64,000 nucleotides of DNA from an uncultured Methylophilaceae bacterium (lineage in GTDB: Bacteria > Pseudomonadota > Gammaproteobacteria > Burkholderiales > Methylophilaceae), in the NCBI GenBank assembly GCA_903834185.1, contig CAILHX010000002.1, positions 1 through 64,000 of the forward strand. The letters are read 5' to 3'. Below the pieces are notes generated by a model. That model searched no databases. It saw only the letters and a program-made list of their open reading frames with translations, and was not told where the DNA came from. Made by a program: the position numbers and the translations under genes. Within the stretch, counting starts at the first letter, position 1. Each line of letters opens with the position of its first letter. Below, piece by piece: positions 17,330 through 55,869 of this stretch.

Positions 17330-17351
17330 TCATCAGCACTTGGTAGTCAAT

Positions 17352-17378
17352 AAAAAAGCGGCCTTAGGCCGCTTTTTT
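17352..17378. terminator. Bidirectional terminator between phi and fba
   Basis: A GCGGCC-TTA-GGCCGC hairpin flanked by A6 and T6. It lies between the convergent ends of phi and fba and should stop transcription from both sides. Confidence 0.9.
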
Positions 17379-17431
17379 ATTGACTCAAGCTCTTTTGTTG
17401 AGCAAGTTATGCCACGACTCAATTCATCATT

Positions 17432-26853: not shown

Positions 26854-26886
26854 ACATATATATATATATATCGCCTAACCATATAT

Positions 26887-26929
26887 TGCGTTTAAAGCAT
26901 AAATTGTATAAATTAATGCTTTAAACGCA
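26887..26929. promoter_or_regulatory. Inverted repeat spanning the promoter of the HTH-ArgA gene
   Basis: Two perfect 14-bp arms (TGCGTTTAAAGCAT and ATGCTTTAAACGCA) flank a 15-base AT-rich centre that holds a good -10 hexamer, TATAAA (26907-26912). The repeat ends 18 bp before the ATG of the XRE-domain protein. A dimeric repressor bound here would block RNA polymerase. Because the next gene encodes its own DNA-binding domain, self-regulation is the natural reading. No U-run follows, so it is not a terminator. An (AT)8 run lies just upstream at 26856-26871. Confidence 0.75.
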
Positions 26930-26947
26930 GATTTAAGAGGCTGGGGA

Positions 26948-28492
26948 ATGTCTATAGGTCAGGCGGTACGCAAACGGCGCAAATCCTTAAACCTGACTTT
27001 ACAGGAGCTCGCCATGCGCGTGGCCGCTGATAGCGGCAATCTATCGCGTATAGAGCGCGGGATACAGGGCGTGTCGGAAACCATGCTGCACAAGCTATGT
27101 GCAGCGCTTGATTGCACGCCTGCATTTCTTTACGCGCACGCCGACAGCTCCAGCAACGCGTCACCTTCTTCCTCTGATACCTTGCAGCCGCACGAATTCG
27201 TCAACTGGTTCCGCTCGGTTGCGCCTTATATTCACGCTTTTGGCGGTCGTACCTTCGTCATCGCTTTTGGTGGTGAGGTGGTAGATGACAAGCAATTTAT
27301 TGCATTGTCTCACGACCTCAACTTGTTGGCGAGCCTGGAAGTCAGGCTGGTTCTGGTACACGGAGCGCGCCCGCAGATCGAGCACAGGCTGCGGCGGTCG
27401 AAATTGAATACCAGCTATGTGAACGGGTTACGGGTTACGGACGAAGAAGCGATGGAATCAGTCAAGGAAGCCAACGGTGCGATCCGCGTCGAGATTGAAG
27501 CACAACTTTCGATGGGCCTCATCAACTCGCCCATGGCAGGTTCCGACATCCGTGTTGCCAGCGGTAATTTTGTGACAGCTAAGCCATTGGGTGTATTGAA
27601 CGGGATAGACCTGCAGCATACCGGTGAGGTACGAAAGGTGGATGCCATTGGGATCCAGAAACGACTGGATGACGATGAACTGGTGCTACTCTCGCCCATA
27701 GGTTATTCACCCACCGGTGAAGCATTCAATCTGACACTTGAAGACGTGGCGGTGAGCGCTGCGGTTGCGCTGGACGCGGACAAGCTGATCTTTCTGATGG
27801 ATACCTCAGGTATCTATGACGTGCACGACCAACTGCTACACGAAATGACCGCCAGAGAGGCAGAGCAATTCCTGCGTGAAACGCAGAATCCGGCAGGCGA
27901 TGTCAGCTATTACCTGCCAGCTGCCATTCGCGCTTGTAACCACGGCGTGGCACGTACACACCTGATCAGCCGCCATACCGATGGGGCAATTTTACAGGAG
28001 CTATTTACCCATAGCGGCATAGGTACCATGATCACCGAAGCGCCTCTGGAAACCATGCGAAGTGCGACCATCACCGATGTCGGCAGTATTTTGCAGCTGA
28101 TAGAACCGTTAGAGGCGGAAGGCATACTGGTGCGGCGTGGACGCGAACGTATCGAAATGGAGATCGGCTATTTCTTTGTCATGGAACACGATAACCGCGT
28201 GATCGGCTGCGCTGCGCTTTACCCCTTCGACAATAGCCGCCAGGCAGAACTCGCGTGCATGGCGGTACATCCATCTTTTCGCGGTAATGGGCGCGGCGAA
28301 AGGTTGCTGAATTACTGCGAAGAGCAAGCCAGACTGCGCCGCTTCAAGACTCTGTTCGTACTCACCACACGCACTGCACACTGGTTCCTTGAACGGGGGT
28401 TTGCAGAAGGCAAAGTCGAATCGCTACCTTCTTCCCGTCAACAGTTGTATAACTACCAGCGACAATCCAAGGTATTCATCAAGAATATATAG
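26948..28492 (+). CDS. argA: N-acetylglutamate synthase fused to an N-terminal XRE-type DNA-binding domain
   Basis: A 514-residue protein of three parts. Residues 4-62 are a Cro/C1 (XRE) helix-turn-helix (LTLQELAMRVAADSGNLSR, then IERGIQG), followed by a Ser-rich linker at 66-78. Residues 83-340 are an amino-acid-kinase fold (AFGGEVV, LVHGARPQI) as in N-acetylglutamate synthase ArgA. Residues 370-510 are a GNAT acetyltransferase with the acetyl-CoA loop RGNGRG (445-450). ArgA makes N-acetylglutamate, the first step of arginine synthesis, and normal proteins have about 440 residues without the HTH. The start is supported by GAGG before the ATG, so the HTH is part of the gene. Function as an enzyme and an arginine-sensing regulator is inferred. 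Confidence 0.88.
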   Translation: MSIGQAVRKRRKSLNLTLQELAMRVAADSGNLSRIERGIQGVSETMLHKLCAALDCTPAFLYAHADSSSNASPSSSDTLQPHEFVNWFRSVAPYIHAFGGRTFVIAFGGEVVDDKQFIALSHDLNLLASLEVRLVLVHGARPQIEHRLRRSKLNTSYVNGLRVTDEEAMESVKEANGAIRVEIEAQLSMGLINSPMAGSDIRVASGNFVTAKPLGVLNGIDLQHTGEVRKVDAIGIQKRLDDDELVLLSPIGYSPTGEAFNLTLEDVAVSAAVALDADKLIFLMDTSGIYDVHDQLLHEMTAREAEQFLRETQNPAGDVSYYLPAAIRACNHGVARTHLISRHTDGAILQELFTHSGIGTMITEAPLETMRSATITDVGSILQLIEPLEAEGILVRRGRERIEMEIGYFFVMEHDNRVIGCAALYPFDNSRQAELACMAVHPSFRGNGRGERLLNYCEEQARLRRFKTLFVLTTRTAHWFLERGFAEGKVESLPSSRQQLYNYQRQSKVFIKNI

Positions 28493-28500
28493 CCAAGGCC

Positions 28501-30153
28501 ATGAGCGACCTTATCCATACCCAGCCACGCGCCTCCATCATCATGATTGCGCGCGAGCGGCATGCGCTGACGGAAACCGCGCTGGAATACGTGAATCGCA
28601 ATACCGCAAAACCTTACCGTCTCATCTATACCGATGGCCAGACGCCGGAATGGCTATGGCAGCGCCTTGAGCAACGTGCCCCGGAATGGGGACTGGAACT
28701 GATGCGCCAGCATAAGCCCTTATGGCCTCAGGCATTAAGGAACCGCGCGCTGGATTCGATCACTACCGATTATGTTGTGTTAATAGATAACGATGTCCTG
28801 GTTTCCCCGGGCTGGTTAGAAAAATTAGTCTCCTGCGCAGATGAGACCAACGCCGGCATTGTCGGTCCCTTGTACCTATGGGGCGATGGCGTCAAAAAGC
28901 CCCTCATCCACATGGCGGGTGGCTACCTTGAAAAAACCTCCACCGAGGCTGGCGACATACTCAGGCAATTCCATCCTTTCGAAAATGCAGAGTATGAAAA
29001 AGTCATTGCAGAGCTATCGCGAAAACAATGCGATAACGTAGAGTTTCACTGCATGCTGATCAGAACATCGGTGCTTAAAGAAATGGGGGGATTCGACGAA
29101 AGCATACTGAATGTGCACGAGCATGTAGACACCTGCCTCTCTGCGAAAAAACTGGGCTGGACTACATATATGGAACCGGCAGCGCAAGTCCATTTCCTGC
29201 ATTTTGCACCCTACAGACTGGAAGATATCGCCATGCTGCGCTGGCGTTGGGCCGATGCCAGTACCGAAACCAGCATTGAGGCTTTCTGCAAAAAATGGCA
29301 TGTGCTCAATCACCCGGACACATTCGACAATATGCGCCATTTTGTCAGCAATGTACTATCCGGGGGCATAGACCCTATCCGGAAATTTTCCCAGAGCTGC
29401 GCTGATCACAATATACCGATGCGGCGCGAAGAACTCCGACAAACGCGCTCCGATATGCTGAATATGGCAGCCGAACGCGGATATAACCCCCAAGAATTGG
29501 CTATTCTGAGCAATGGCTATCGCCTCGCCCAATCCCTGACCGACGGTGGTTATCGCCCATGTAGCCGTCCGTTCGTCAATCATCTGGTCGGCGTTGCCAG
29601 CATACTGATACGTTACGGCTTCAAAATAGATCTGGTGTTGACTGGCTTGCTGCATACTTTTTATAGCCACGGGCCGTCTCATCCCGATGGCGCGGATGCT
29701 GCAGTCGAGGCTGTCGCTACGCTGCTGGGCGGCATCGGCAGCCCCATAGAGAACCGCGTTCGTAGCTATACATTGAGGAACGGCAATTTCAGTGAATTTC
29801 TGAGCCGAAAAGTGCAGGAATTACTGATCTCCGAGGTAGAGGTATTGATTCTTGCCGCCGCAGTCTCGATCGAGATCAACCTCAGCGGGGAGGTACGCTA
29901 TTCCAGCAGAAGCGACGCGCTATCCGCAGACTACAACCAAGCACTCGCTCAGGCTTGCGACTTGCTTGGAGTGAATGGGCTGTCGGCAACCTTCGATCAA
30001 ATAAACCGGTCAGCCTCTGTATCGGCTGATCTCAATACCAAACTCAATCAAAGCTACCGCTTGCTCAGTGATAAACAGAATGCTGTTTCCATGTCCAACA
30101 ACCTCCTGACAGCCCAGCATAAACTCCAAGCCAGCCAGCCCGACCTGAAGTAA
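28501..30153 (+). CDS. Family 2 glycosyltransferase fused to an HD-like domain
   Basis: A 550-residue cytoplasmic protein. The N-terminal GT-A domain (about 10-235) has ASIIMIARER at the start, the metal-binding DND at 96-98 (VLIDNDVLVSPGW) and a GGFDES acceptor segment. A linker rich in charged residues (290-355) leads to a C-terminal part with NHLVGVASIL (360-369) and GLLHTFYSHG (382-391). These resemble the DUF6817/HD-type folds, although the full HD metal set is not certain. It begins 9 bp after the ArgA-like gene, and AAGG is close to the ATG, so the two may be co-transcribed. The sugar donor and acceptor are unknown. Confidence 0.75.
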   Translation: MSDLIHTQPRASIIMIARERHALTETALEYVNRNTAKPYRLIYTDGQTPEWLWQRLEQRAPEWGLELMRQHKPLWPQALRNRALDSITTDYVVLIDNDVLVSPGWLEKLVSCADETNAGIVGPLYLWGDGVKKPLIHMAGGYLEKTSTEAGDILRQFHPFENAEYEKVIAELSRKQCDNVEFHCMLIRTSVLKEMGGFDESILNVHEHVDTCLSAKKLGWTTYMEPAAQVHFLHFAPYRLEDIAMLRWRWADASTETSIEAFCKKWHVLNHPDTFDNMRHFVSNVLSGGIDPIRKFSQSCADHNIPMRREELRQTRSDMLNMAAERGYNPQELAILSNGYRLAQSLTDGGYRPCSRPFVNHLVGVASILIRYGFKIDLVLTGLLHTFYSHGPSHPDGADAAVEAVATLLGGIGSPIENRVRSYTLRNGNFSEFLSRKVQELLISEVEVLILAAAVSIEINLSGEVRYSSRSDALSADYNQALAQACDLLGVNGLSATFDQINRSASVSADLNTKLNQSYRLLSDKQNAVSMSNNLLTAQHKLQASQPDLK

Positions 30154-40036: not shown

Positions 40037-40087
40037 GCATCAGCTCAAATAACCGGGCGTGATGCCCCCTTTTATTTGAGCTGATGC
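40037..40087. terminator. Long inverted repeat between convergent genes
   Basis: Perfect 16-bp arms (GCATCAGCTCAAATAA and its complement) flank a 19-base loop that contains a second small hairpin (GGGC with GCCC). The right arm begins exactly at the stop codon of the MFS gene. It probably terminates transcription from both the efflux operon and the MFS gene. Confidence 0.8.
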
Positions 40088-55786: not shown

Positions 55787-55803
55787 ATCTAATCGCTACA
55801 CAT

Positions 55804-55832
55804 AAAAAAGCCCCGAATTTCGGGGCTTTTTT
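55804..55832. terminator. Bidirectional terminator between mlaA and pmbA
   Basis: GCCCCGAA-T-TTCGGGGC flanked by A6 and T6. It lies between the convergent ends of mlaA and pmbA. Confidence 0.92.
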
Positions 55833-55869
55833 ATTTCTATGCTTATGCTTACCTACACCCACGCGTTGA

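Follow-up and report, generated by a model that had tools for sequence, protein, structure and literature searches.

In Methylophilaceae, bacteria that use methanol, the gene for N-acetylglutamate synthase (NAGS), which takes the first step in arginine synthesis, is argA; it encodes an enzyme fused to a helix-turn-helix (HTH) domain of the Cro/CI type and is preceded by a pair of short dyads. We consider it likely that this pair is the operator through which the fused enzyme, HTH-ArgA, controls its own promoter as an arginine-sensing autorepressor. HTH-ArgA is probably best explained as a new member of the trigger enzymes, which include PutA, BirA and NadR (PMC8249747). Here, we report a comparative analysis of the protein, its promoter region and the distribution of the dyads, centered on one argA locus in a 64-kb window, the whole stretch of DNA analyzed (64,000 nucleotides). 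The features of this locus are collected in Table 1.

Table 1. Features of the argA locus in the window
Feature	Position	Strand	Basis or remark
Putative operator box 1	26884..26902	.	TATTGCGTTTAAAGCATAA; matrix score 18.4 and family footprint
Predicted -35 hexamer TTGCGT	26886..26891	+	15-bp spacer, weak; same relative position in several relatives
Inverted repeat	26887-26929	.	Arms 26887-26900 and 26916-26929, perfect 14 bp
Predicted -10 hexamer TATAAA, flanked by box 1 and box 2	26907..26912	+	TATAAT-like hexamer at a similar place in relatives
Putative operator box 2	26914..26932	.	TAATGCTTTAAACGCAGAT; matrix score 16.6 and family footprint
HTH-ArgA, NAGS, 514 aa, N-terminal HTH	26948..28492	+	NF003641, E 1e-204
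Cro/CI-type HTH domain, aa 1-61	26948..27130	+	HTH_31, HTH_3 and HTH_26 at residues 3-61; conserved in the family
Amino-acid-kinase-like domain, aa 102-341, arginine-sensing part of NAGS	27251..27970	+	PF00696, E 1.6e-31
Arginine-site motif ELFTHSGIGT, aa 351-360	27998..28027	+	Motif definition from PMC4490483

The matches of HTH-ArgA to NF003641 and TIGR01890 begin at residues 80-84 and lie far above the cut-offs. The protein aligns fully with the NAGS structure 2r8v, which indicates that the enzyme domains are intact by sequence; such domains and a DNA-binding domain of the protein's own are two features of a trigger enzyme. For the third, DNA binding that alters transcription in response to a metabolite, the conserved boxes and the covariation described below are indirect signs. 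Arginine-sensitive NAGS and NAGK proteins share the motif E-(L/I)-(F/M)-(T/S)-x-x-G-x-G-T (PMC4490483), which is retained as E-L-F-T-x-x-G-I-G-T in all 30 family fusion proteins examined. A single-sequence structure model was of low confidence (pLDDT 33), and no result rests on it. The HTH is present in nearly all Methylophilaceae genomes with a full-length ArgA match. In 24 genomes from other families of the same order, the alignment starts only at residues 48-82, mostly 62-82, and none of the matches listed from outside the family, in a search of 274 genomes of the class, covers the intact HTH span. Thus delimited by sequence matching, the HTH-NAGS fusion is confined to Methylophilaceae, the family that has the boxes.

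The sequence-only reading of this DNA had described a perfect 14-bp inverted repeat around TATAAA upstream of HTH-argA, and the repeat is present as described. Its left arm, TGCGTTTAAAGCAT (26887-26900), and right arm, ATGCTTTAAACGCA (26916-26929), are separated by 15 nt, and the argA ATG (26948) lies 18 nt downstream of the right-arm end. The repeat can be extended to 19-nt arms (26887-26905 and 26911-26929) that are 95% complementary and enclose a 5-nt loop. Such a repeat arose in 5 of 4000 random 97-bp sequences with the dinucleotide make-up of the argA intergenic region. On the scale of a 64-kb window, about 0.5 such repeats are expected in order-1 random sequence (3 in 6 windows); perfect repeats of such size occur at four places in the real window, including the one at argA. 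Two of the other three, at 17345-17385 and 55802-55834, are GC-rich hairpins followed by T-runs, with A- and T-runs at their flanks, and are likely bidirectional terminators. The third (40039-40085; GCATCAGCTCAAATAA ... TTATTTGAGCTGATGC) has no T-run behind it. An (AT)n run at 26855-26871 immediately follows the rsmE stop codon.

In an alignment of 37 upstream regions from the family, conservation falls on two 19-bp boxes of the form WWWTGC-N7-GCAWWW, whose centers are mainly 29-30 bp apart. In the window, the TGC-N7-GCA dyad of box 1 is centered at 26893 and overlaps the predicted -35, and that of box 2 is centered at 26923, 30 bp away, and overlaps the predicted transcription start. The long repeat with 14-bp arms arises because, in this genome, the two boxes mirror each other almost perfectly. 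The proposal of an operator is supported, but the 14-bp arm is not the unit of recognition; each arm contains a TGC-N7-GCA dyad of its own.

An inverted repeat of this kind could also act as RNA, as the rsmE terminator, an attenuator or a leader structure, and the 43-nt segment does fold at -20 kcal/mol (z = -6.1). Against this, the fold is non-significant in four of the five relatives folded, and the predicted transcript begins within the second arm and would lack the first. No stretch combining a GC-rich stem with a T-run was found at 26887-26940 on either strand, and no terminator match falls on the repeat, in agreement with the sequence-only reading that it is not a terminator. Compared with each other, the 7-bp box cores match at all 7 positions here and at 3.8 of 7 in relatives; cores taken from mismatched genomes match at 3.1 of 7. 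We regard the hairpin reading as highly improbable and discarded it on the strength of the terminator scan and the folding of relatives. Because the match between box cores is near the mismatched level and the hairpin is non-significant in most of the relatives folded, these comparisons indicate that the two DNA dyads, rather than a hairpin, are under selection.

A consensus promoter scan of this sequence found no promoter, and the promoter reading from this sequence alone is weak, albeit plausible. Most relatives have a -35-like TTGC or TTTGC inside box 1, a TATAAT-like -10 immediately before box 2 and a predicted start inside box 2.

Of the 113 usable family genomes, 103 have a pair of boxes upstream of HTH-argA with a spacing of 28-31 bp, compared with 0.9% of shuffled upstream regions. 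This count uses a simple dyad score (pass, 15) that was written after the first set of upstream regions had been seen; the 79 regions fetched beyond that set are the fairer test, and 71 of the 76 usable ones pass. In leave-one-out scoring, the median pair score is 26.1, and 35 of 36 regions exceed the 99% shuffle level (9.7), with the first or the second box being weak in some family genomes. The boxes are absent upstream of five HTH-less argA genes from other families (pair scores, -11 to -28.5). Dyad sites thus lie at the regulator's own promoter and are conserved alongside the regulator, as is characteristic of Cro/CI-type operators.

The two-box pattern is also nearly exclusive to this promoter. 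A search of 120 family genomes yielded matches in 39, compared with 2 matches in total for a reversed control pattern, and 26 of the 30 family loci fetched with the pattern lie directly upstream of HTH-argA. In the genome of the window, the pattern occurs once, at argA. The scan of other arginine genes comprised argC, argF, argG, argJ and carA. No box pair was found upstream of these five genes in 28-30 genomes each, and their median pair scores range from -6.0 to -2.0, compared with 27.2 for argA. A single good box near argJ was seen in one genome only and did not recur. Single boxes number 32 in the window's own genome, compared with 19 for the reversed-pattern control, and are mostly intragenic; those between genes lie beside waaA/nrdJ, an mshL-like gene and tadA/aroC. 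The loose pattern WTTGCN7GCAWW proved uninformative. A search for ArgR (PF01316) gave no match above the cut-off in 61 genomes of the order, with the Escherichia coli and Bacillus subtilis controls detected. Both marks of an ArgR regulon, an argR gene and sites at several arginine genes, were not found in the genomes and genes scanned. The suggestion of an arginine regulon that accompanied the description of the repeat is therefore not borne out: with the pair nearly exclusive to HTH-argA, no pair at the other arginine genes scanned and ArgR not found, the genomic evidence points to autoregulation of a single target.

Residue 40 of the ArgA HTH (Q in this protein; codon at 27065-27067) covaries with the half-site base. 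The half-site is TGC with Q at this position and TGT with L or M; the mean TGC fraction is 0.75 in 53 genomes with Q and approximately 0.17 in 40 genomes with L or M. Phylogenetically independent contrasts, taken from a tree that leaves out the recognition region and with L or M set against all other residues, agree in direction in five of five cases (p = 0.03, one-sided, for five equal signs), two of them involving reduced genomes with poorly defined boxes. The narrower comparison of Q with L comprises two independent pairs. In ten genomes, residue 40 is I and the TGC half-site is kept, and linker columns of the alignment correlate with the boxes too. The covariation is suggestive, although not conclusive, in tying the boxes to the HTH of ArgA itself. 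One genus, represented by 11 reduced genomes, has a divergent HTH (SKIEQGKLKPS) and TTGT-N7-ACA boxes, and regulation may be altered or decaying there.

XRE proteins are numerous in bacteria, and another regulator, of this or a different type, might bind the boxes, leaving the HTH of ArgA vestigial or used otherwise; the genome-wide search was aimed at sites and not at rival regulators. However, the boxes are confined to argA genes that carry the HTH and are nearly absent elsewhere, the HTH core NLSRIERG is close to invariant in the family, and residue 40 follows the half-site base, all of which makes another regulator improbable. The family-wide conservation, the near-exclusivity and the covariation together support the self-operator layout that had been proposed from the sequence.

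In the mechanism that we favor, autorepression by HTH-ArgA, the enzyme's HTH domains would bind in pairs, one pair to each 19-bp dyad (TGC-N7-GCA within A/T-rich sequence). With box 1 over the predicted -35, box 2 over the predicted transcription start and the predicted -10 between them, occupancy would block RNA polymerase. In Neisseria gonorrhoeae NAGS, the N-terminal helix shifts and the hexamer ring becomes wider when arginine binds (PMC4490483). The HTH of HTH-ArgA is joined immediately before the region that aligns with this helix. Arginine may alter the geometry of the HTH domains and favor operator binding; it is a likely corepressor because the known arginine site is kept and the HTH sits before the helix that arginine moves. 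A single conformational change would then inhibit the enzyme and shut off its gene. DNA binding, repression rather than activation, the effect of arginine and the bridging of both boxes by one hexamer are steps that we infer, and the role of arginine as effector is deduced by analogy with a relative that has no HTH.

The same protein and sites could, in principle, operate with the opposite logic, through binding at low arginine, self-activation or arginine-independent autorepression. The sequence sets the sites and not the sign, many Cro/CI-type proteins merely autorepress, and PutA represses in the absence of its substrate (PMC8249747). Box 2 on the predicted start and box 1 on the -35 nevertheless suit repression, and the arginine site kept beside the point of HTH attachment would be a ready-made sensor, so that we consider such logic unlikely. 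More tentatively, and with somewhat less than even confidence, arginine-sensing autorepression may extend to a family-wide, single-target trigger enzyme operating without ArgR, in which one allosteric event produces both feedback inhibition and autorepression and HTH pairs of a single ring bridge boxes approximately three helical turns apart.

HTH-ArgA resembles PutA, BirA and NadR in that a metabolic enzyme carries a DNA-binding domain of its own and controls transcription, a control that is predicted from sequence in the case of HTH-ArgA; PutA likewise has a single target region that contains its own gene (PMC8249747). In contrast to these proteins, the enzyme here is NAGS, its Cro/CI-type HTH sits at the N-terminus, and the signal is presumed to be the end product of the pathway, acting at an allosteric site, rather than a substrate or product of the enzyme. 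Arginine-dependent repression of argA through paired promoter boxes, as with ArgR and its ARG boxes, would match the logic proposed for HTH-ArgA. However, ArgR is a separate protein with another fold and a multi-gene regulon of approximately 20 genes per genome (PMC5343134), whereas the HTH-ArgA boxes differ in sequence from ARG boxes and point to a single target. The hexameric NAGS of N. gonorrhoeae (2r8v, 3d2p) shares the kinase-like and acetyltransferase domains, the N-terminal helix region and the arginine motif with HTH-ArgA, but lacks the HTH, and its known regulation is allosteric inhibition only. Cro/CI (XRE) autorepressors have the same type of HTH, short dyad operators and paired sites over their own promoters; in HTH-ArgA, by contrast, the effector part is a biosynthetic enzyme, and NAGS fusions were found in Methylophilaceae only. 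In the open-access literature searched, NAGS is not named among the trigger enzymes, and no description of an HTH-NAGS fusion was found.

If correct, this reading would explain how the entry into arginine synthesis can be regulated at the gene level in bacteria without ArgR and would make NAGS one of the few trigger enzymes. HTH-ArgA would also be a compact test case of an existing allosteric ring wired to DNA through one added domain, in which residue 40 and the half-site base make specificity directly testable. Knowledge of the operator would be useful for the physiology and engineering of methylotrophs, for which descriptions of arginine-pathway control are scarce.

Genes downstream of argA may share its control. 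In the window, a glycosyltransferase-2 gene (28501-30153), which also matches DUF6817 weakly, starts 8 bp past the argA stop and may share the argA transcript. In the genome of the window, argB is on a separate contig; in several genera (seven genomes), it lies directly behind HTH-argA and would be co-regulated if co-transcribed.
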